Shown: positions 27,622 through 42,138 of the stretch, one piece after another
How the letters are laid out: every line of letters starts with the position of its first letter
Numbering within the stretch: the stretch's first letter is position 1
NCBI RefSeq assembly: GCF_016592595.1
Contig: NZ_AP012977.1
Location: 1,465,912 to 1,529,911, forward strand
Direction: 5' to 3'
DNA: 64,000 bases
Source of the DNA: Abyssogena phaseoliformis symbiont OG214
Lineage (GTDB): Bacteria; Pseudomonadota; Gammaproteobacteria; PS1; Pseudothioglobaceae
The notes under the pieces: generated by a model
Databases searched by the model: none
What the model was told of the DNA's origin: nothing
The model's input: only the letters and a program-made list of their open reading frames with translations
Translations under genes and position numbers: made by a program

Positions 27622-29270
27622 CTAACCAATCATTACAATACGAAAACCAATTTCATCTGATTTTTCAGACTTGGGTATATATTGATAGTTTAAATCAACA
27701 AATTTTGCACTAATAGATTTCCAACTACCGCCTTTGGCAACTCTCTTTCGAGTGCTTTCATCAATAACCCACTCCCAAACATTACCAAGCATATCGTACA
27801 ACTCCCATAGGTTAGGGCTTAGAGATTTAACAGACATTATAGACTCTGGTTGATTGTTGCAATAATAAACATTTACCTGGCTGCAGGTATTCCTCTTAAC
27901 GCTCAGAGCGTTAGCATTAGCTGTGTATTTCCAATGGATGGACTTTGGTAGCATGTAGTATTTTTGGTGTTCTTTTGACATCCACTTAGCAAAGTCAACC
28001 GCCTCTTGCCAGCTAACATTAACAACAGGATTTTGTGCATTTTCAGCAATCACCTCATCTGACTTTCCTGTATTTAATAGAAATTTATTGTACTGGGCGT
28101 TAGTAATTTCGCCATCACTAATATAAAAATCATCAACACACTCTTCATTTGCAGACAAGGCACTCTCGGATGAATTTTCACTTACAATACACCCACCAAA
28201 AATAGTTCTTACTGCTTTCAATCATATGACACACCTAACTCTCTATCAACAGTTACCTAAAATTTTCTAAAATACTGTTTATTGCCTTCAATTATTTGAT
28301 CAACTTTTAGAGAATCAATTTTGTTAATCTTAATATCGTTTAGACCAATCTCTGTAATACCAACACTTCTTTGTCTAGTTAGCGAATCTGCATCTTTTGA
28401 GTCTAGCAAATATACCGTATAAGTTTTCTCAGGATTTTTAATTTTAAAATTAACTGGCTTAATTTTTCCATCCAGGTTCATCTTAATTAGAATTTTTGAC
28501 TTACGTGCATCATTCTTAAAATTCTGCGTCTCACTAATGGCAACAGGAACAGCCACATCATAATAAACTGCATCATCCGAATGCAACAATTCTAGCAGTA
28601 AAAACTTCTTTATCTGCATAATATTTAACATTGATCAATCTTAGTGTGCCTAATATTTCATTAATAGCGGTATTTAAAAGTCTAGAACGCATAGAGGAGG
28701 TAACTTGTTCTTGTCGTCTTTTCTGTTCCCAGTATATCTCATTGTTATAAGACTTGATTGCCGTATTATAAACACCAACCTTATTAATATAACTCTGTTT
28801 AATTGCATTTAATTTTTCTTGATAAATATTTTTCCTTTGTGCTAGCCTAATACGAAATTGCTTTGTTGTTTCAAATTCACCTTTAGCAATAATTGCAGGC
28901 GAAGGAATAGCTAGGTGGCTTGGTTTTCTTAGCTGAATAGGTGTCAACTTCAGTTGGTCTAAGTAACCAGTCTTGAATGCAGTCTTCCACAGACTTAAGT
29001 GCTAGATTAAAAGGCGCTTCTAAACGTTTTAGTAGTTTATTAGAGGGTTGATGATAATTGGATATTTTTTGTAAGATATCCTCCGCCTTTTAAACCTCTC
29101 CAGAGGTAACAAACCGCTTCGCTTTATTGTGCATTCCAGCCAATTCTTTACTACTATATCTAGTATGATCCAACTTGGATATAACAAAAGTTTTAACGAT
29201 GCCGCTTTTAGATTGACAACCACTTGCTAATAAAACCAGTAAAGCACAAAAAAATAGCCATTTTAAACAT
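27622..29270 (-). pseudogene. Broken lipoprotein with formylglycine-generating-enzyme (SUMF1-like) domain
   Basis: From the ATG at 29268-29270 a signal peptide leads, across a frameshift in a T-run, to LVLLASGCQSKSG, a lipobox. Then KTFVISKLDHTRYSSKELAG, an in-frame TAA, KAEDILQKISNYHQ, a frameshift near 28945, AKGEFETTKQFRIRLAQRKN, another shift near 28600, and VYYDVAVPVAISETQ. The last 199 codons are open: CVDDFYISDGEITNAQYNKF, VNVSWQEAVDFAKWMSKE, MLGNVWEWV, GFRIVMIG, the FGE-sulfatase fold. The domain order (coiled stretch plus FGE domain) is known in gammaproteobacterial lipoproteins. The FGE catalytic Cys pair is not evident, so it was perhaps a binding rather than oxidase domain. It was the distal gene of the decayed operon. 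Confidence 0.85.
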
Positions 29271-29776: not shown

Positions 29777-30193
29777 TCAATGCCTCGTAGGGTTTAAATA
29801 ATGACTAAGCTGACTGATCTTTTTGTTTTTTTGAATTATCTTTTTACTACTCATTAGTTTAATTCTATCAATTTCATCATTTTTCTCCTCTAATTGAGAC
29901 TCCAATGATTTATTTTTGTCTAGAATTAAACTTAGTCGTTTTAGCTTTTTAGCTAAATCCCTTAACGCATTTTCATTGTTAATATTACTATTTTGTTGTG
30001 AGCATTGCAAACCGCTACCTAATTTAACCATACAACCGTCAATTACATCGCCCTCTGAAACTAAAATCAATACATCGTTTATTTTGTAAACATAACACTG
30101 CCCGATTTACCCAACGCCAACAACAATTGCATTAAAAAATGCAATTGGCAATAATATCGCCAAAATTAAGAGTTTTTTATTATTATTTAACAT
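29777..30193 (-). pseudogene. Broken exported coiled-coil protein of the pilus-like operon
   Basis: ATG 30191-30193 begins MLNNNKKLLILAILLPIAFF, a signal or anchor segment. An in-frame TAA after VVGVG interrupts the frame, which resumes IGQCYVYKINDVLILVSEGD. A helical charged segment follows (LRDLAKKLKRLSLILDKNKS, ESQLEEKNDEIDRIKL). The start overlaps the end of the PilP-like gene by about ten bases, typical of an operon. The only lesion seen is the nonsense codon. No family recognised. Confidence 0.55.
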
Positions 30194-30813
30194 CTTTGCT
30201 ATCCTTTTTTTCTTGATATAATTTATTACTTAAATAGTTAAGCCCCAGTACTTCATTATCACCGTCTTCCCTGCCTACAATAACAGAGTCTGGGTTAATC
30301 TTACGAACAATAAAACCTTTAATATTACTTCCCTCTTTAACGCTGACTACATTACTATCAACACGAATAACAGCAGTACCACTGCTTGAATTTATTATTA
30401 TTTCAAAAACCTTTGAGGCAATGTTTGCCTGATAGAGACTATGATAAATATCAACATTACTAATAATGTTATCTCTGGCAATTTTCTAATTTTATTACTT
30501 CACCTTCTAAACGTCGTTTAACAATTTGTTTTTTTTAAAACAGTAATCTTTTGTAAAAAAACATCGTCATCGCCAAATTCTACGACTAAATTTGGATCAA
30601 GCCTATCTTTTAATTTAACCTTGCCAGCATTTGATTTAACTATTTGCTCTATATCAGAAATCTTTTCATTCAAAACTTTTAAATTAAACAAGATAACTTC
30701 ACTATCCTTGCTAGCAGATTTTTCAAAATCTGCATTAAGCATAAAAGAAGTGACTGAACTTACTAAAATAAATGAAATAAAGATAAATAAGTAATGTTTT
30801 GGTATTAGTTTGC
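30183..30813 (-). pseudogene. Broken PilP-like pilus assembly protein
   Basis: A hydrophobic leader, HYLFIFISFILVSSVTSF, precedes MLNADFEKSASKDSEV and VLNEKISDIEQIVKSNAGKV. After a frameshift near 30520 the frame reads ARDNIISNVDIYHSLYQANI, VIRVDSNVVSVKEGS, KGFIVRKINPDSVIVG, stopping at 30183-30185. The C-terminal small beta domain, with a 'generate motif, scale-sensitive Val/Ile strands, I-x-P-x-S-V' pattern, resembles PilP of type IVb pili. The assignment rests on neighbourhood (secretin and PilO-like gene upstream) and fold-like pattern, so it is moderate. No ATG is in frame with the leader. Confidence 0.5.
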
Positions 30814-31265
30814 ACGTCCATAAATCCTTGTATTGAATAATGCCTGGGCATTACTTCCGATTAATTGATTAATCACAACAAAATCGCGCATGTTTTTGTT
30901 GACTTGTTGTAAGAAATAAACCTGTTGCCAGAAGTCACCTTAACAGTAATTTCAATATCCTTAAACTGTCCAATTCTATTGATACCCTCTACAGCTATAG
31001 TATTTTCGTTAATATTAGAGATATTAAATTTATCAAGTAATATTTGAAGTAAATTTCTCAAAATTTGCATACTTTTATCAATTGAATTAAGTTTCAAATT
31101 GCCTTCAATATTTAACAGTTCTTGCATTAATTTCGTATCACTTTGACTAATTTTACTGATTTTTTTACTAAAGTTATAACCATCAACAAATTGAAAATAA
31201 CTTAAATATAGTAAAGCAATTGACAAAAGTGGTAATATAAATTTTAATTTATCCTTAAGTTTCAT
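30805..31265 (-). pseudogene. Broken PilO/PilN-like inner-membrane pilus protein
   Basis: ATG 31263-31265 starts a protein with a short cytoplasmic tail, one membrane helix (LKFILPLLSIALLYLSYFQF) and a periplasmic coiled coil. A small domain follows (NTIAVEGINRIGQFKDIEIT). A frameshift near 30905 separates VKVTSGNR from YFLQQVNKNMRDFVVINQLI, ending IYGRAN at 30805. This topology is that of PilN/PilO-type alignment proteins linking the inner-membrane platform to the secretin. It overlaps both neighbours by a few bases. Family assignment is by topology and context. Confidence 0.5.
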
Positions 31266-31440
31266 CAATCTAAATAAATGGTGTATTTATTATTATCTTT
31301 ACTAACATACACGTAATGAATAATACTCTTAAAAGAGCGGCTGGCATAATTGGATCAAAGTTATTATTTTTTACCGCCAAACCAGCCTTATTATGCAACT
31401 CTTTGGAAAGTTTAATAGCAAAACCCCTATTGTTTTGCAT
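31265..31440 (-). pseudogene. Broken small gene between secretin and PilO-like gene
   Basis: ATG 31438-31440 reads MQNNRGFAIKLSKELHNKAG and DPIMPAAL. A frameshift then leads to YVYVSKDNNKYTIYLD and TGA at 31265-31267. The start overlaps the secretin stop, and the TGA overlaps the next ATG. About 58 residues. No family recognised; its retention within overlapping genes suggests a real former operon member. Confidence 0.4.
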
Positions 31441-33182
31441 TACTTGTTTTTATAATAACTTGAGCTGATATAAACCACCAAACTCACAAAAAATATTACA
31501 ACAATTTTAGGTGAGAACTCAATTAAATTGTTATTAGCCATTAGTGAAAACTCACTAACGCCTGATGACTCATTCTTGGTTTGAAACAAGTTACCAAGGA
31601 AAGATACGCTACCTAAACCTGGCGTTGTAGAATTTTTCTTTTTACTGCTTTCTACCGCCAAGCCACCAATAACCAAACTCTCGTCGTTACGTATTGGCAC
31701 AACGGTTTGAGTTTAACGCATACTGATGGTTGGCGCTTCTATATTTGGTACGCCTTCACTGCTAACTAAACGCATCTCCTCCAATAAAGTTAATTCTGGA
31801 GAGATATACAGAATTACCTCTGTATCAGAAATAATATGTGGCAAGAGGTAAAAATTAAGCCCTGTTTGTAAAGATTTAAGATTTGATGTATACCGAGTAA
31901 TATCAGATGAAGAGGTGCTAGAGTCACCCCTGCCGCATAGAAAATAGTTTTACCCACAGTTAGTGAACCGATTGTATTGTTAGCTACGCGAATAGAAGGA
32001 CGAGACATAACTGCAACATCACCAAATTTCTTTAAAGCATTGGTATAAGACCTTGTTGTATTGCCGCCTTTTGTCCAGGCCAATGTAAAGTTAGCACCGT
32101 TTGACCCCGCCAAATGTAGAGGCTCTTGAAGCGCCAACACGAGTTAAATCACCAGCAACTACAGTCTAATCAACACCAAATTTCTCTTCTTCAGTTAAGT
32201 CAACTTCGGTAATAACACCACTGATTGAAACTGATCTAGACATAGATTTATTCACACTTACTAGAAAATTGCCAATTCTATCAACAACATCGGCTCTATC
32301 TTTTACCCAAATCATACCCAGTTCTTTATGAATAACAACTCGGCCACTATCGGTTAGAAACTTTTCAATGGTTGCTGTTAGATTACTCAAAGTAGCAGTG
32401 CCTCCACTAGAAATGGCCTTACCGGCAGAAAAATCGATTGCTTTGTCGTTTTTGTCCTTAGAAGTCTTAGTACTCGTTTCTTCCCTTGAAGAACTGACAT
32501 TAAATGATTGTTCAATCAGTGGAAAACTAACCGTAAATAATTGTTCTTTGTCACGGAAAATAATATAACTTTTTGCTTCTTTTTTCCAAACAATATTAAG
32601 TTGTGCTAGCAATCTATCTAGTGCCATCTCAATTGGCAAGTCTTTGAATTCAACACTCACCAACGCTTTCAAACTCTCTTCAGCGCCCCGTCTCTAACAA
32701 TATAGGAAATATCGCCTAGTATGGTATTTAAAACAACATCTAGCGGTTGATTAAATGCACGAAAAGTAATACGTTTTTGTTTAATGACTAAAATACCGCC
32801 AGTCGTTCGAGTATAAGAAAGCCCAACAGGTTTTAGTATTTGATGCAAAGCCTGGTTTACAGCAAGGTTTATTACCTCCAAAGAAACCAGCACGTTCGCA
32901 TTGATGCCTTCGCTATAATTAACCTCATCAACCAAAGTTGGCAATACTGTTTTTAACAGCCTGATTAAAAATCGTCAGGGTGACCTTTCTATTAAACAAC
33001 TCAACTTCTTGTTCAATAACCGGGTAATTTTTAACTTTGGGTGCGGCATCTTGATAATTACTACTGACAACAGCAACTTTCTCTCTATGATTTTTAATAT
33101 TCTCTGCTGAATAATCACTACAGCCACTAACTAAGATACTGGTTGATATAAAACCAATGCCAACTGTTTTTAAAACTTTCAT
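31440..33182 (-). pseudogene. Broken type IV pilus/type II-like secretin lipoprotein
   Basis: Secretins are outer-membrane channels for pili or secreted proteins. ATG 33182 opens with a lipoprotein signal (ISTSILVSGCSDYS). After a frameshift near 32940, N-domains follow: LEVINLAVNQALHQILKPVG, FNQPLDVVLNTILGDIS. A shift near 32675 leads to FKDLPIEMALDRLLAQLNIV and RVVIHKELGMIWVKDRADVV. An in-frame TAG and two more shifts interrupt the gate region: MSRPSIRVANNTIGSLTVGK, NFYLLPHIISDTEVILYIS. A TAA precedes the C-terminal VVPIRNDESLVIGGL. A lipid-anchored secretin with PilO/PilP-like genes downstream resembles type IVb pilus loci (PilN/BfpB-like). At least four frameshifts and two stops make it dead. 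Confidence 0.85.
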
Positions 33183-33269
33183 TACAATACACTTCCTTTT
33201 TTTGTTGTAAACATCTTCTATGCTATACTATGAAAATATTGGAAATTCCATGGCAATTTTTACTGCCAA

Positions 33270-33496
33270 TTAGGCAAGAAATTCTTGATAAGACACAATC
33301 TTAAAAACCAGTGCCTTAATACTAATATCTTTTTTCTTAAAATTTAAATCAAGAACAGCAATATTATTGCCTATTCTAATAGTTTTTGGATAAATGATAC
33401 TGATTATCAATCACAACTGCATCAGTTGGTTTTCCAAAAAAAATTAACTGCAACGCCAAGCACAATGGCGATAATAATTTTAATACCTAAATTCAT
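33270..33496 (-). pseudogene. Broken small protein between S74 protein and secretin
   Basis: ATG 33494-33496 overlaps the TGA of the giant gene (ATGA). The product reads LGIKIIIAIVLGVAVNFF, a membrane or signal segment. After a shift come GKPTDAVVIDNQYHL and, after another, KTIRIGNNIAVLDLNFKKKD, ending SYQEFLA at 33270-33272. About 75 residues originally. No family recognised. Operon overlap suggests a function with the two large neighbours. Confidence 0.45.
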
Positions 33497-36400
33497 TCTA
33501 GACGTCCTCCATCTCTATGCCAACCTTTTGCACCTGTACAAATATAGAACTTTTCACTATTTACTAAAACACCAATATTACCAGTGTCTGATCTTTTATT
33601 ACACTTGCTAATATTTGACTCTACTTCAAACACATCAAACTTAGACGCCATATTGCTTGCCCAAACATTACCATCCGACAAATAAACGCCCTTAACCGAT
33701 AAATAACCCTGTGCACCGCTGCCAGCTGTTTTATCAGTTTTAATACTGATTAAATTACCTATTTCACTTGAACACTTAATATTGAATTCATTGCCACTGA
33801 TATTAATATCAGTACTCAACTCTAGGCTATTGGCATATAAGTTATTATCCTTATCGATCACTATTTTATTATTGATGCTAAGTGCTTGGTTTAGATTAAT
33901 TGATTCATTGCTAATGGTAGATGCTTTAGACAACTCATCGACTTTGTTTTGTTGCAACTGGAAGCCTTTAACTAAGACAGGAATCAACCTGGCTTCACTA
34001 ACACCTAACAAACTTGGGCTAAGATTTGACACCATTGGGGCATAAACTGCTTGGACTTCTTGAGCAATAAAACCAGTGACTAACTCACCATTAGGATTGC
34101 TCTTTCTGTGGAAATCTACAATTCTAAGATTAGATAAAATGTGTATGGCATCAATGTTGGTATTTTGAATGTCTTGTTTAGTTCTTCTGTCAGACAGGTT
34201 GACTAATGAGAAGTTGGAGCCGTTATACCTGTAATGAACCTACTTAAGGGTTTGGCGTATCATAAAAAGAAACCATAGCAGTAGGACTCCATTAACTGAG
34301 GTGATAATTTTAAGTACAGTGCCAGTATCGCCATTAATCGTTACTGCGCCGACTACATCTAGGTCTCCAGCAATGCTAACACCTGTAGAGTTATTAACTA
34401 CCAGGGTATCCGTATTAACCTTAAAACTACCGCTATTAATGTTGATGTTAATATCAGCACCATCAGCAGTGATTGAATTAAGTGAAGTGTCGCCAACATT
34501 AGTAACATCATTGTTGTTTAAATTAAATCCTGTTGCGCTGATTGTGCCGATGTTGGTTAGGTTGTTAGCATTAAAATTAATGCCTGTACTAGCACCAGAT
34601 ACAGCATTGCTGATCACGTTGCCAGTGATGATGCAGTTTGAACCGCTGATAGCACTGCCATCTAGCTCTACGGCTTTGTTGATAATGAGTTTTTGATTGT
34701 CGGTGTCAAAGGTTAGATACTCGTTGCCAGTTGTACCAATCACTAGCGCTATACTTTGTCCAGAGGTTAAATTAAAGGCCATGGTACTACCATTGACACT
34801 TAAAGTGTTTAATACAATGCCATCAACGTTGGTAATATCACCACTGTTTAAATCAAGTGCTATTGTGCCGATTGTGCCAATATTAGTCAAATTGTCTCCA
34901 GAAAAATCAATGTCTGTAGCAATTGCATTGCTAATCACATTGCCAGTGATGTTAATATCGCCAATTCGGGCACTGCTGATTAGAGTTATGCCATCAATAC
35001 CACTGATACTACCGCCGGTGATGAGTTTTTCATTACCATCAGTGGTGTCAAAGGTTAGATAATTATTAGTATCTTCACCAATAACCAAGGCTTTAGGCTA
35101 GTTATCAGTCAGCTTAAAAGTCATGGTGTTGCCATTAGCACTTAAAGTTTTCAGTTGGATATCATCAGCATTGCCAATATTTCCTGAATCGCCAGTAAAT
35201 ACCAGCCCTTCTGCGGTTGTAGTTCCAGTGGTTATAAGGTTGCTACTACCGAAATCAATATCACCGGTAGAGTTGATACTACTGCCACTTAACGTTAAGC
35301 TACCGACCCTGATTGACTCAATTGGATTGTTACTGCCAATGGTGAGTTTTGATATCAATTGTGCCTGATGACATTTTAAAATTGTTTAAATTATTACCAT
35401 TTTGGCTTAAGAATAACTTGCATGTGTCAGTATCAAACACTAAATAATCATCCGTACTACCCCCAATGGCTAATGCCTGGTTTTGATTGTCCTTAAGCGT
35501 AATAGCCCAAACATTAGTATTGGCTGATATGTCATTAAGGCCCATATTATTAATATCAACAATTTTGCCAGTGCTTAGATATAAATCTGCTTTAAAAGTG
35601 CTGTCAGTTCTTAGATTATTATTGCCAAAACTAATATCAGTTATCGAAGTAATGTTATTGCCACTCAAAGTTAAACTACCAACTCTAATGTTAGTAATAG
35701 GGGTATTCGTGCCAAGCTCTACCCCCATCAATGCTACCAGCATTAATATTATTTAAAATCAGATGCGCCGACTTGGGAATCAAAAGACAAGTTGGTGAAA
35801 TTTACAGAAACTGCTGTGTTTGCGCCAATAATGGTGTTGTCAATATTGCCACCAGTAATAGTAAAATTTAAACCACTAATGTTGGCATCTAATTCTAAGT
35901 TCTGTGAAACAACTATCTTGCTATTTACTGTATCAAACCTTAGATATTCGTTAACGCCTTGCCTAACAACAAGCGCGCTGGCTTGATTGTTTTTAAGATT
36001 AATATCTATGCCTGACCCTGTTTGAGCATTAATACTATCAAGCTTAACATCGCCTGCATCAATCAAATTACCGGCTGTAAAATCAAGATTGCTAGCAGTC
36101 GAAAAAGTAAATGACCCTGCAATAATATCATTATTCGAGAAATTAATACCATTTACATTCGTAGCCCTAATGGTATTTTTACTAAAGGTTAAACTGCCCA
36201 CTTTAAAAAAAGATGCTGGCGTGTCAACTCCGATGCTAACACCATCAATAGAACCGCCACTAATGTTAAAGCAATTACCCTGAATTATATTCTCGCCTAA
36301 CGTTGTGGTTTTGCTAGACAATATTTCTTTATTTAAGGTATTAAATTTTAAATACTCAATCGCGCCACTTTCAATAATTAAAGCATCTTCCTCGCCATCA

Positions 36401-38226
36401 TTTAATTCTAAAACCGTGGCATCTGCTTTGATGGTATTGACTGATAAACTATTAACATTAACTATGTCATTACCCCCAAGGTAACAGTACCACTAAAAGT
36501 GGCATTACCATCTTTATCCAAAACCATTGCAACTTTTTCATTGGTAATAAGCTCAAAAGAATATGAATCCTTTGTTCCAATAGACATTGTAGAAGCTTTT
36601 GTATCACAACCCAAGTGTACCAATTTCTCATCTGATGGAAATATTTGCCACCCAATCCTATCCTTAATGTACATCTCACCTTCACTAGAATTAAAAGCTA
36701 AGGAGCCATTACCAATATCATCAGGGTCAGGCAACGAACTTAAATCATTAATACTATAACCAATTCATATTATTTGCATCAGTATGTAAAGAAAAAAGCC
36801 CTCCTTGTGCTGAAACCTTGGTTTGGATTTCTTTCTCAGCTTCAATTGACTTGGCTGTCGCCGTTCCACTAACATCCAAGGTGTAACCACTACTAGGATT
36901 TTTTCCAATACCTGCGCTAGAATTAACTGTATCTAAAATTAAAGTGTTGTTATTGCCAAATGAATAAGCAGCAGTACTAGTCATATCGGTTTGAAAGTTA
37001 ATACCTTCTGCCTTTAAAAACCAAATTAGCAGCATCAAGAGTGGACATTTTCAATGTCATTAGCGACTACACCAATCGTTAAGTCCTGAATTTTTATATT
37101 ATCTTTATAAGAAACTTCTCCTCCGCCAACACTTGAAAGGTTTATATCTCCAATGCTGAGTGCGTCACTACTGTAAATATTGCCAGCAACAGCAACATCA
37201 TCTTTTACTGATATAGAATTGTTATTCTTAACTAAAATATTATCCGGTTTGCCAATTTTAATATTTCTAGTATTTAAATCTTTTAAGGTTGTCAAGGTTG
37301 CGTAATTTTGATTATCGCTAGTAGCAATAGCTATCGTGCCCTTATTGCGCTCAATGCCATCGATTTTAATTTTATTATCGCTACCAATCTTGCTATACAC
37401 AACAGCAATTTCTGGCAATATATCTAATGTAACAATATCATTATCGTTGATTTTTTTTGCAACAATATTTTCTAAATTAGCGTCGCTAACATCCTTAAGT
37501 GAATCAGTTTTAAGAGGGTTAAATTCTGATACTTTGTCCATATCCAGTATCAATTCAGCACTTTGAATATTGGCAATATTTAAACTCTTAATTGTGCTGT
37601 TTTCACTGAAACCTAATAGATACTTATCGCCAGAATAATAAATACTGGCACTCACTTCTTTTTCAACTTTGGCACCTTTGTCAAAAGATATTCGATGACA
37701 ATCTAAACTAAACTGATTAGTTTCAATAAGTAGTCCTTGACAATCATATTGTCCAGCCCTTATGCGATCACGCTTACTAGACCTGCCAATTTCTTCATCA
37801 GATTCTAGTAACTTTTCACTGCTTTTTACCTCTTCTCCAAAGCCAGAATTAGCATAAGGGTTACTTTTAATATTACCGGTCTTTAGTGCTTGCTCTTCTC
37901 GGTATTTTTTATAATTAACACTGTCAACAAAAAATTTTCCATTTTTAGTACCAAATGTCCACGGAAGCCCCCAAGGGTCTTTTTTCTCAAAATAAAAATC
38001 ATGCTTAATGGCGGTGGTTTATGCGTATTCACAAATTTGAAGAATACTGGTTGCACTTTCGTTGTTATTTTTGACGTTTAGAGCTTTTAGAAATTTTCTA
38101 AAAATAGCCGATTGCTTCAATGGCTTTAGCTATTTTAGCCTCCTCAATTAGCTGTTTTTTGGCGGCAAGAGTGGTGCTTGTTGCTAATAGCAACAATAAG
38201 CATAAAAAAATATTTTTTAAAGCCAT
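33493..38226 (-). pseudogene. Giant exported repeat protein ending in a Peptidase S74 chaperone domain, broken
   Basis: ATG 38224-38226 starts a Sec signal peptide (NIFLCLLLLLATSTTLAA). An in-frame TAG (38098-38100) and a frameshift near 38010 lead to a long open part (HDFYFEKKDPWGLPWTFGTK onward to 37035). A tail-fibre-like segment follows (AGIGKNPSSGYTLDVSG), then about five imperfect repeats (34.2-36.4 kb). The C-terminus has SDRRTKQDI, LRIVDFHRKSNPNGELVTGF and IAQEVQAVY. This is the intramolecular chaperone (S74) domain of phage tailspikes, with its Ser/Lys self-cleavage elements. The last piece ends ICTGAKGWHRDGGRLE. At least eight frameshifts or stops. About 1,570 codons originally. It starts nine bases after the Wzz-like gene and overlaps the next gene. 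Probably a trimeric surface fibre; function is inferred from the domain. Confidence 0.82.
34250..36420 (-). repeat. About five imperfect tandem repeats inside the S74 protein gene
   Basis: Each unit contains, in the coding direction, an IGxxTPI-like turn, VGSLTLSGNNI, a DIxFGNNNL step, a loop, NxMxFxLxDNQ, ALVIG and EYLTFDT. The YLxFDT codons occur near 34708, 35053, 35440, 35935 and 36345, so spacing is 345 to about 495 bases. The Gly/Asn-rich, alternating hydrophobic pattern suggests stacked beta turns (beta-solenoid or triple-helical fibre). The copies have diverged, so they are old duplications rather than a recent expansion. Confidence 0.7.
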
Positions 38227-38235
38227 TTTTTGCAC

Positions 38236-39319
38236 TTACTTTATTTTCTTGCGCCTAAATGGACGGGATATAATCATGCCTAACATCAATCCTATAAAAC
38301 CACCAACAACATCCCAAACCGCTTGCTTGTCTTTTGTTAGGTTTAAATCTTCTATTTTTAAAGCTCGCTCTAGCGAAAATACTTTAATGTCATCAGAACT
38401 AGGAGGTACGTCTTTTAAGTCTTTCTAATTCCTGTTGTTCAAAATCCGCATCAACCTCTTGCTTGTCAATAGCAAATCTTATTCTGTCAACTTCAGAATC
38501 AAGCTGCCAATAACCTTGAAGGTACAATAAATCACCAGAACGGCTTTCTTTTGACAGGCTATCAACCCCAATAGAAGTGGCAATCCCTTTATTTTTAGCT
38601 ATTTTTAATGCCTGCTCATATCTATTTATTTTTCTGCCTAACTCTTTATCCCCTCCTTGTGCCTCAACATACCTAGTATCAATTTCGAATTTAATATCCT
38701 GTTTTTTATCATTGATTTTTTTTGCAGAATTTCTAATCAACAAAGCAACTGTTTAACTAGCAGAAAATGACAAGAAGCCATCTAACCGTTGTTTGGTAAT
38801 TTCTGGTTTTTTAATATCTATTGAAACCATGACACTATCAGTGTCCTCACCAATCCGAGCCCTTCGTTTAATCTTTAACTTTGGGTAAAACTGATTATCA
38901 TTTGAAAACCGTTTGGCCATCCTTTCTGATTTAATATTCTTAATAAAATCTTCAAAAATAACTCGTTTATCAACGAAACTACCGACCAAGGGTAATTACA
39001 AAGCTTTGATATCAAAAACATTAGGAGGGGCATGACAACACCCACTCTAAAAATTTCTGACTTTGGACTGCTGTTAATTTGAGATGAAAAAAGTACCGAG
39101 CTAATAATGATACACATTATAATGGTAATCTGTTCTAATATTGAACAGCGGCTTCAGTGACCAATGAAATTTTTCGTGCTGCTTATCTTGCTCTTGATAA
39201 GAGATATCTTTTTCACTATATCGTGCCTCTGAGTCTGAGTATATATCGCTTAAATAGGTAGATAGGTAGAATAATAAAATTTATCATCGCCTTCAAACTT
39301 TTCTTGCTTTTTGCATCAT
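38236..39319 (-). pseudogene. Broken Wzz-like polysaccharide chain-length regulator
   Basis: ATG ATG at 39314-39319 starts KARKFEGDDKFYYSTYLPI, shifts, and continues SEARYSEKDISYQEQDKQHE. It shifts again into the first membrane segment (ITIIMCIIISSVLFSSQIN). After a shift near 38990 come SFVDKRVIFEDFIKNIKSER and DSVMVSIDIKKPEITKQRLD; after a stop, coiled coil (KINRYEQALKIAKNKGIATS). After a shift near 38415, VPPSSDDIKVFSLERAL and the second membrane segment GGFIGLMLGMIISRP, stopping at 38236-38238. Two-helix topology with a Pro-rich approach to the second helix matches Wzz. It ends nine bases before the S74 gene and starts about 30 bases after the pglL relic. At least four lesions. Confidence 0.75.
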
Positions 39320-39349: not shown

Positions 39350-40857
39350 TTACCTTAAAATTTTCATCTTCATATTACTAACAAGCTTAGGATTTGGACA
39401 ATTTGCACTCTTATTCTTCATTACCAAATCAAAATGTACACTAGCATTTTCATTATTCCTTCTTGTAATATAAAATATAATCATATTATTTTCAACTGAA
39501 CATTGATAGCCCTGGTACTTTATATATTTTTGGTATAAGTCCAATGTGTGTTTTTGCAGACCACTATAAGAAACACTAAAAGCAAGCAAAAAACGGTAAC
39601 TAGGCTCATCTAACGCCAAAAAACTTTCCTTTTGAAAATAAAGCTCTTCAAATGCTTGTTGAAACTTTTGAGTATCTTGTTTTTGTTGATAAATTTTTAG
39701 CTCAATAACGTTTGCCCTATATGAACCTATAGGCGCTTGTTTCTTTTAATTTTGTTACTATTTTTAACGCTTGGTCATATTTTTTTTGCTTAAACAGCGC
39801 ATAAGCATATCGATACAGTGAATCGTTTGCATCAAGCCAGTACATTAGTATTTTTTCTTCAAGCTTAATAACGTTTTGATAATTTTGACGCTTAAAATGA
39901 AGTTGCGGCAAAAAGCCTAATATATTTTGAGTTTCTAAGTGGTAAACAAGTGGATTTATGTTGTTCAAGCGGCTAAATTTTAAAGTTTGATTCATGTTGT
40001 TCAAAGTAGAATAAAGCCCAACCCACTGGTAATAATAAAAACAAACACCCAAAATCCAAATATAATTTGGCATAGAGTTTGACTGAAATTTAGCTCAGTT
40101 AGTCTTATTTTTTGGCAAAAACTGCTCTGATTTCTTAGCAAGAAATCCAGCATAGAAACCAAACAAAACTGCTGGCATTGCCAACTGGTGAGGAAAGCTA
40201 AATTGCATATTTACAAATAAGGCGCTTAAACATACAAATAGTAAATAATAAAACCATGCATTGGCATTGTCTTCTAGTTTAACTATCTTCCAAAGTGCGG
40301 ACAAAAGTGCCACAACAACAATAAAAAATAAACCCAGCCCAACAAACCCAAGATCAACGCCGATCTCTAACGTGTCGTTGTGCACTCTTTTGGTAGGACA
40401 ATACATTCCACGAACCATAACCACCTTGAATTTCATTGTCAAACCAAGTACCGAGGCCCGTGCCAAACCATGGAGAATCCTTAATCATGTGCCAAGCCAC
40501 TTGCCAAATTTGATAACGAGAATATTCACTATTGATTGCGTCTTCACCAATTGTAGAAACGGCGGAAGAAAGCTCATGCCAGAATGGTGTCCAACCATCA
40601 CTGGAGAAGTTAATCAGTAAAAAGACATAGTGCAACAACAAATATACTGGCATTTCTTTTACTTTTATTCCAAAAAACCAGTATGCTAGTCGTCTTCGTT
40701 GAGCGATTAAGAAGACTAAAATTAAAACAAACTCTATAAAAATACTAAGCCATGCGCCTCTGGTTTTGGTGTAAAAAATAAACGCCATTATTAATGCCGC
40801 CATAATGGCCAAAAGCCAAGTTCCTTTGTTGTTGATTTTGTATGCATAACAATACAA
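39350..40857 (-). pseudogene. Truncated PglL/Wzy-type O-oligosaccharyltransferase, broken
   Basis: PglL-type membrane enzymes transfer lipid-linked oligosaccharide to proteins, often pilins. The Wzy_C core is visible: FYTKTRGAWLSIFIEFVLIL, SEYSRYQIWQVAWHMIKDS, PWFGTGLGTWF. After a frameshift near 40400 comes RVHNDTLEIGVDLGFVGLGL. An in-frame TGA at 40095 is followed by the C-terminal part (YIWILGVCFYYYQWVGLYST, then LFKQKKYDQALKIVTKLKE, TPR-like). One more shift near 39720 precedes the end at 39350. The N-terminal third is missing: the frame begins at 40857, where the divergent copy begins. So it is both 5'-truncated and internally broken. Confidence 0.8.
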
Positions 40858-42138
40858 AGCATGCGTTATTGGTCTTTTCTATATTGATTATCGCCACGCT
40901 GTCCGCTCCTTGGTTTGACACAAGTTTTTATAATTATTTCTTTGTTAAAGCGTACGTCACTTCATTTGCTGTGTTTGTTGCAATTTTATAGCTGATTGTA
41001 TTTTTTGCTTTTATGTTAATAAGAATGATTAACAACCAACCAAAAAGCCTTAATCTTGTCACCTTGTCATTAGTGACTTCTGCTGTGCTCATTGTATTAA
41101 TAGGCATATCGCAACATTTATTTTCCTACCCTATGTTGCAAGGCTCAATTAATCCCGCAGCAACATTTGGCAATAAAAATATGTCCGCACAACCATTCGT
41201 GTTTATTTTGCCATTGGGTTTATATCTTTTGCATAATACTCAAAAGATCTTATCAACACTATTTGGCAACTTTTGCAATATCCTTAGTGCTGATTTTTGT
41301 GCTTTATACTCAAACACATGCAGTATGGCTTGCGGTGTCATTTGGACTCTTGGTAATTTTTATATTACTATTTTCTGGTAGATTTAAACTTAATTGGGAT
41401 CCAGAAAAAACTTATGACAGCCTTGTGGCATTGCTGTTTCTACTGATTATGATTAATTTTTCATCCAGTGGTTTTGAACCATTTTGGCACCACATTAATC
41501 AAGCCACAATCACCGCATTGGGTGATTACAGCAACGCCAATTATTCACGTTTTAACATTTGGGCGATTGCGCTTGATATGTTCAATAGCTCGCTTTTTTT
41601 GGCGTAGATCTGGTAGTTTTATGCATAACGAAATGGTGAAAGGGTTCCATACCATAGGTACAATAGATTATCAGCGAGTACATAATGATTTATTAGAGTT
41701 GTTGGTTGAGTTGGGGCTATTTGGCGTTGTGTTGTTTATTTTGGTTGTATTTTTTTTAATTCAAGCGGTCATTAGATGTGCCAAAAATCAACAAAAAAAT
41801 GCTTTATTTTACATATTATCATTGATTGGTATTTTGGCTTCGTTCGTTGACACCAAAAAAATTAGATATTTGAACATGGCTGATAGCATTATTTATCATC
41901 AAGATTTACAAACCGTGCTAAAAAATCTAGCCTATAGTTATGATAAAATAGGCACGCCTATTTTAAATATACGGGTTGAGAATAAAAATTTGACTTATTG
42001 GGAGAATAATTTTTCATTAGAAAAGCTCGCAACTTATATAAAGTTGGTCGGTATGAATTAGCGTTAAAGACATTGCGAAAAGCCAAACATAATCAGCCAA
42101 AAGGTAATTATAATCTTGATAAACACCAAGCAAAATAA
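40842..42138 (+). pseudogene. Second PglL/Wzy-type relic, divergent from the first
   Basis: ATG 40842 gives MHNNTKHALLVFSILIIATL and SAPWFDTSFYNYFFVKAYV. An in-frame TAG (near 40989) precedes AFMLIRMINNQPKSLNLVTL and GNKNMSAQPFVFILPLGLYL. After a shift near 41260 come FAISLVLIFVLYTQTHAVWL and NANYSRFNIWAIALDMFNSS. After another near 41600, FHTIGTIDYQRVHNDLLELL and VELGLFGVVLFILVVFFLIQ. Its end, YKVGRYELALKTLRKA, needs one more shift and stops at 42136-42138. It parallels the minus-strand copy (for example NFSSSGFEPFWH versus NFSSDGWTPFWH), so the two are paralogues. The TPR-like C-terminus appears shortened. Confidence 0.78.

Follow-up and report, generated by a model that had tools for sequence, protein, structure and literature searches.

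What place does a Peptidase_S74 (S74) domain, the intramolecular chaperone of phage tail fibers and tailspikes, have in a broken giant gene that lies among bacterial genes? The question is raised by a stretch of 64,000 nucleotides from the Abyssogena phaseoliformis symbiont OG214 (bases 1465912-1529911 of its 1.54-Mb single-contig genome, G000; below, the window), in which an initial annotation had placed such a domain at the C terminus of a Sec-exported giant protein of fiber-like ancestry. The answer that we favor, with somewhat better than even confidence, is that the ancestral protein was a trimeric surface fiber exported by Sec, folded by its S74 domain, equipped with a pseudopilin-like head, and served by a secretin of the pilus/type II secretion system (T2SS) type.

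The S74 domain is real, and its Ser-Lys dyad is intact. The profile PF13884 scores 46 bits on the frame at window positions 33496-34239 (minus strand), where its cut-off is 22 (E 6.4e-12), and the two motifs named in the initial annotation, SDRRTKQDI and FIAQEVQAVY, are both found in the translation. A search of the whole 1.54-Mb genome returned this domain as its single match; the same search was also positive in 1 of 14 control genomes. The Ser-x4-Lys arrangement is kept as SDRRTK in the window, as SDRRVK in a relative from the same family and a different genus (G028), and as SLGALK in both giants of a relative from a different gammaproteobacterial family (G039); the same Ser-to-Lys spacing of five is reported for MyRF (S587/K592) and endoNF (S911/K916) in the available text of PMC8326128. 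Against PDB, the profile of the C-terminal region finds a phage tail-fiber chain (8jov, E 2.6e-4) and MyRF (7dc3, E 0.017), and the stalk and S74 region match tail-fiber PHROGs. By the descriptions available from PMC8326128 and PMC10769870, S74 domains trimerize a stalk and then cut before their own serine, and the ancestral protein would likewise have trimerized and cleaved itself. A monomer structure prediction of the C-terminal part reached a predicted local distance difference test (pLDDT) score of only 38, and the model was not used for searching.

The giant gene is dead in this genome, a breakage at which the initial annotation only hinted by speaking of a repaired translation: there is no intact giant open reading frame (ORF). 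Between the start at 38226 and the stop after 33496, we count six frame changes, five from alignments to the G028 giants and one, the first, between leader and head, by eye. Three in-frame stops lie inside segments aligned to homologs, and a short stretch directly before S74 also appears, by eye, to be out of register. The annotated Sec leader does survive as a signal-peptide-like start (MALKNIFLCLLLLLATSTTLA), judged by eye, and the fiber-like ancestry is in keeping with the PHROG matches and with open relatives of 1512, 1199 and 1581 residues in two other genomes, each truncated by a contig end or junction. Within the stalk remnant, 342-bp spaced repeats are found near 34.7-35.2 kb. We consider sequencing error an unlikely source of the breaks because the long genes on either side are open (the flanking ATP synthase, YidC, DsbD and iPGM genes, which match their families), while the locus and the regions around T2SS-like or pilus-like ATPases elsewhere are broken; in these regions, at 458-477 kb (L056) and 1399-1417 kb (L057) of the same genome, T2SS-like/pilus-like genes are fragmented around the ATPase matches. 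The C-terminal region was not found in any of the 11 same-genus genomes listed, and the locus therefore looks like a last remnant. The locus as a whole is decaying in a shrinking genome.

The S74 domain is internal and not C-terminal, as had been annotated. The open frame is 248 residues long and the Pfam match stops at residue 68; beyond the S74 unit as modeled (108 residues, longer than the Pfam match) lie 140 open residues in the window and 139 in G028. This part consists of a module around a GYLS.K..Y motif, with 19 of 112 alignment columns invariant over five rows, of which two come from a single genome, followed by a tip that contains two cysteines and a Gly-Trp. In viral S74 loci (here and below, the best 80 of 150 relatives) the module occurs in none of the 80; their 89 S74 ORFs continue beyond S74 for a median of 4 residues and never for more than 22, and the closest of their S74 segments reach 40% identity. 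A separate scan of IMG/VR for the module gave 26 pattern matches and no relative; a few IMG/VR matches listed at residues 11-212 (L080-L082) proved to be an S74 domain ending one ORF plus the next ORF. Of the 83 records matching in a phage collection, none matched over 80% of the query, and a plasmid collection gave one record that matches in part. Long post-S74 tails of 217-473 residues do occur elsewhere, in one bacterium and four candidate-phyla genomes (L016, L017, L018, L020 and L022), without the module. A shufflon-like C terminus, which we had suspected, is not claimed: apart from an irrelevant chance match for giant B of G028 (E 0.17), the tips have no Pfam match at E values up to 1, and a PDB search with the tip of giant B gave no match.

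The surroundings of the gene are a decayed secretin operon whose gene order is that of an intact operon in G039. There, a giant's tip is followed by a 282-residue gene, the secretin, genes of 139, 176, 209 and 202 residues, and an FGE-type gene; the window retains broken pieces of these operon genes with the order kept (Table 1), the counterpart of the 282-residue gene being detectable via its G028 relative (269 residues) and not directly. In G028 too, a giant is followed by the 269-residue gene and the secretin, and on a separate contig a 354-residue gene stands upstream of the head of giant A, as in the window. The G039 secretin matches PF00263 (E 2.3e-32) and the MshL model TIGR02519 (E 6.7e-55), the latter at 186.1 bits and thus below the equivalog cut-off of 250.2; the G039 copy of the 209-residue gene shows a weak resemblance to GspC/PilP, entirely below cut-offs. 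Hence, where the initial annotation had spoken of envelope genes and not phage genes, the neighbors are indeed bacterial and non-phage, but are more exactly described as the remains of a secretin operon.

Taking these findings together, we envisage the following course for the ancestral protein. The chain would cross the inner membrane via Sec, with the pseudopilin-like head first, followed by the long repetitive stalk, S74, and the module with the tip. S74, with its Ser-Lys dyad, would trimerize the stalk and, once the correct trimer has formed, cut before its serine and thereby detach the stalk from the module and tip. The neighboring secretin might pass the fiber across the outer membrane, and the head might retain the fiber in the secretin machine for a role in adhesion.

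The head proposed in this scheme looks pseudopilin-like on suggestive fold evidence and on weak and mixed sequence evidence, both drawn from the intact relatives. In these, the segment behind the leader carries WPT..L and PWG motifs, like the region that follows the first helix in pilins and pseudopilins. AlphaFold2 on five aligned heads predicts, for residues 1-120, two helices of which the first is long and the second shorter, then a hairpin and a further helix, with block-mean pLDDT values of 64-82. With this model, the top 16 rows of a VIA-align search are all pilins or pseudopilins, PulG first (Z 6.7-4.1, the next row 3.2), although by the tool's own note a Z under 8 can reflect a common arrangement. 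The first seven Foldseek rows are also pilins or pseudopilins (best E 0.36, with none at E <= 0.001). The head profile has four matches among all PDB chains at E up to 10, all of them GspG, though at E values of 0.15-0.64 only, and a single-sequence PDB search with the head of G028 giant B gives pilins in six of eight matches (E 0.1-0.86). Next to the operon in G039 (L014 10919-11494), on the strand opposite to it, a separate 191-residue protein also has a segment that looks pseudopilin-like, with a T2SSG match at E 0.072 that stays below cut-off.

Along with the marginal scores just given, several further points weigh against the reading that we favor. Pilins account for 0/2 matches in the single-sequence PDB search with the G039 head and for 0/1 with that of G028 giant A, and no Pfam pilin or pseudopilin family matches in the heads. 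A prepilin-peptidase leader is lacking: by eye, the leaders of the window gene and of G028 giants A and B resemble those cut by signal peptidase I, with an AxA-like end and without a site of the Gly-Phe type. The locus showed no assembly ATPase; the only T2SSE match above cut-off in G039 lies elsewhere, beside GspC/GspD-like ORFs, and G028 has a single match, at a contig edge. Finally, the pairing of a giant with the secretin gene was met in three genomes only.

In a different account, the giant would be a Sec-exported S74 adhesin of the kind described as mosaic adhesive trimeric (MAT) fibers in Bdellovibrio bacteriovorus, standing beside a pilus-type secretin operon by chance and using other means of export and anchoring. 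The precedent is apt in that MAT fibers are Sec-exported surface proteins with S74, according to the available text of PMC10769870, and the weakness of the sequence evidence for the head speaks in its favor. However, despite their different families, G028, G039 and the window all have the giant directly upstream of the same pair of genes, and S74 is internal here but terminal in the MATs as that paper describes them; we therefore hold this account to be unlikely. A variant of the favored reading makes the S74 cut a release clip, the C-terminal module docking the chain to the export machine until self-cleavage on correct trimerization frees the fiber. Conservation of the module across families and its absence from the viral proteins examined speak for this variant, and MyRF, whose ICA part stays behind at the membrane by the account available from PMC8326128, offers a parallel; yet the last stretch differs between the G039 paralogs on contigs C8 and C12, and with tips that differ between paralogs receptor binding fits better than a fixed dock, leaving the variant improbable. 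The weakest explanation, a prophage remnant or a recently captured phage tail-fiber gene, could claim the tail-fiber family matches of S74 and stalk and the viral S74 identity given above, but we reject it as very improbable, since the scanned window genes are of housekeeping, secretin or Wzy_C type with no phage gene among them, the secretin synteny is bacterial, the viral S74 proteins examined lack both the module and a comparable post-S74 part, IMG/VR offers no relative of the module, and none of the phage records matches over 80% of the query.

The relatives suggest that such giants have paralogs. In G039, identities of exactly 127 bases at the contig ends link C8 (L013) with C17 (L073) on the S74 side and with C12 (L014) on the module side, with the tips diverging beyond; we read these identities as an assembler's trace at a repeat, so that at least two giants probably share the S74-module stretch and have different tips. 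The identities are signs of tandem giants with a common S74 region in G039. In G028, giant A and the giant on contig C164 (L009; public accession JAAOIF010000003.1, with L015 identical to part of it) are only 52% identical over 163 aligned columns and are therefore two genes; the pairing of G028 heads with tails rests on a short protein overlap. The window head is nearest to that of G028 giant A (73/147 identical, against 33/128 for giant B), and the window tip to that of the C164 giant (29/61, against 20/54 for the other G028 tip). The window gene is perhaps a recombination fusion, or perhaps an older single state.

On contig C37 of G028 (L010 1755-2991), the tip of a giant is separated from the head of the following giant by a ZorA-like gene of 291 residues and a gene of 123 residues with one transmembrane segment, their reading frames overlapping. 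The former scores 119.5 bits against NF033914 (E 1.3e-34), where the cut-off is 190, and its partner matches ZorB1 at E 0.051. We do not regard the pair as a Zorya system, given the ZorA score below cut-off, the weak partner and the S74 giants as neighbors; no trace of it was found in the window. Tentatively, and at less than even confidence, we propose that these loci represent a previously undescribed gammaproteobacterial secretin-based fiber system, in which phage-type, S74-folded trimeric giants with pseudopilin-like heads would pass through an MSHA-like secretin and be anchored there, paralogs would have the S74 region in common and differ in their tips, and a ZorA/ZorB-like proton-channel pair, present in the gene string of one lineage, might let the proton gradient drive fiber export or movement.

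The locus is rare. With the window's own genome included in each count, the profile of the C-terminal region (A1) is positive in two of the 83 genomes from the family and in seven of the 369 from the class, the 269/282-residue gene in 2/83 and 2/369, and the module profile (A7) in one of the 398 genomes of a phylum sample; among 185 relatives of G039 the one positive is G039 itself. By eye, the ORFs of other A1-positive class genomes point to a prophage (G174), a contractile-type locus (G105), a lone gene (G212) and a short contig (G266), and a further one, G273, has no PF13884 match. In G105 (contig C85, L075), the S74 protein lies, by eye, within an apparent contractile injection locus.

Table 1. 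Remnants of the giant gene and of the secretin operon, in window coordinates
Feature	Position	Strand	Basis
354-residue gene remnant, no family, upstream of the giant as before giant A in G028	38245..39285	-	alignment; stops inside
Sec/signal-peptidase-I-type leader	38164..38226	-	translation, by eye
Pseudopilin-like head remnant, limits approximate, one internal stop, frame unlike the leader's	37881..38163	-	aligns with giant A of G028; structure and profile evidence from intact relatives
Long repetitive stalk remnant, several frames	34240..37880	-	alignments
Peptidase_S74 domain with SDRRTK dyad	34036..34194	-	PF13884, E 6.4e-12
Conserved post-S74 module and Cys/Gly-Trp tip, gene end	33496..33915	-	alignments
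269/282-residue gene remnant, no known family, downstream of the giant	33198..33496	-	57% identity with L009 14019-14825 (residues 194-265); stops inside
MshL-like secretin remnant, several pieces	31539..33182	-	tblastn with L009 and L014 secretins; STN and Secretin domains below cut-off
139-residue G039-operon gene remnant	31324..31437	-	E 5e-5
176-residue G039-operon gene remnant	30817..30939	-	E 1e-4
209-residue G039-operon gene remnant	30503..30772	-	E 2e-10
202-residue G039-operon gene remnant	29999..30139	-	E 3e-7
FGE-type gene remnant, matching the end of the G039 operon	27634..28110	-	E 2e-18; PF03781 E 6.5e-25 in 27625-28221

Two Wzy_C (O-antigen-ligase-type) remnants lie beside the locus, at 40098-40878 on the minus and 41453-42058 on the plus strand, with one match above the cut-off and the others below. 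The G028 contig L009 (C164) looks chimeric by eye, its secretin frame continuing at an apparent assembly junction into an unrelated gene that we take to be a membrane pyrophosphatase; frames presumably of SecA and RuBisCO type are truncated there.

With the MATs known, a Sec-exported bacterial fiber with S74 is not new in kind. What appears new is the combination: a pseudopilin-like head, a conserved module behind an internal S74 domain, and a place in a secretin operon were not met together in the literature searched; within the terms and library used, no title or abstract linked S74 proteins with secretins or pilins. The surface partner of the first MAT domain awaits identification according to the available text of PMC10769870, and a secretin operon whose giant carries a pseudopilin-like head would offer a concrete, testable answer to how Sec-exported S74 fibers are held on bacterial surfaces. 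If this is true, phage-type fiber folding was built into a pilus-type machine, and the window records that machine's loss during genome shrinkage.

Four known systems frame the comparison. Like the MAT fibers of Bdellovibrio, of which 13 of 21 end in S74, the window protein is bacterial and non-phage, large, of long fiber type, and supplied with a signal peptide (here by eye) and an S74 domain with an SDxxxK-type dyad; unlike them, as far as the available description in PMC10769870 goes, it has a conserved module and tip beyond S74 and a secretin operon, and where MATs have a beta-rich domain of about 130 residues after the signal peptide, the head here is predicted to be mainly helical, with a long helix and a hairpin (at the pLDDT of 64-82 given above). 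With phage tail fibers and tailspikes of the endosialidase type, it shares the chaperone domain and the tail-fiber PHROG matches, but it differs in its Sec leader, its bacterial operon and its 140 residues after S74 against at most 22. The eukaryotic ICA/S74 protein MyRF has the same Ser-Lys spacing and likewise an internal S74 with domains behind it, by the text available, but is a membrane transcription factor and otherwise unrelated. Finally, the locus departs from the MSHA pilus and type II secretion (MshL, GspD, GspG) in a secretin that scores below the MshL cut-off, in having, by eye, no prepilin-type leader, in having no ATPase in the locus, and in its giant S74 cargo, but it resembles them in that its secretin is related to MshL and the predicted fold of its head is most like PulG/EpsG.

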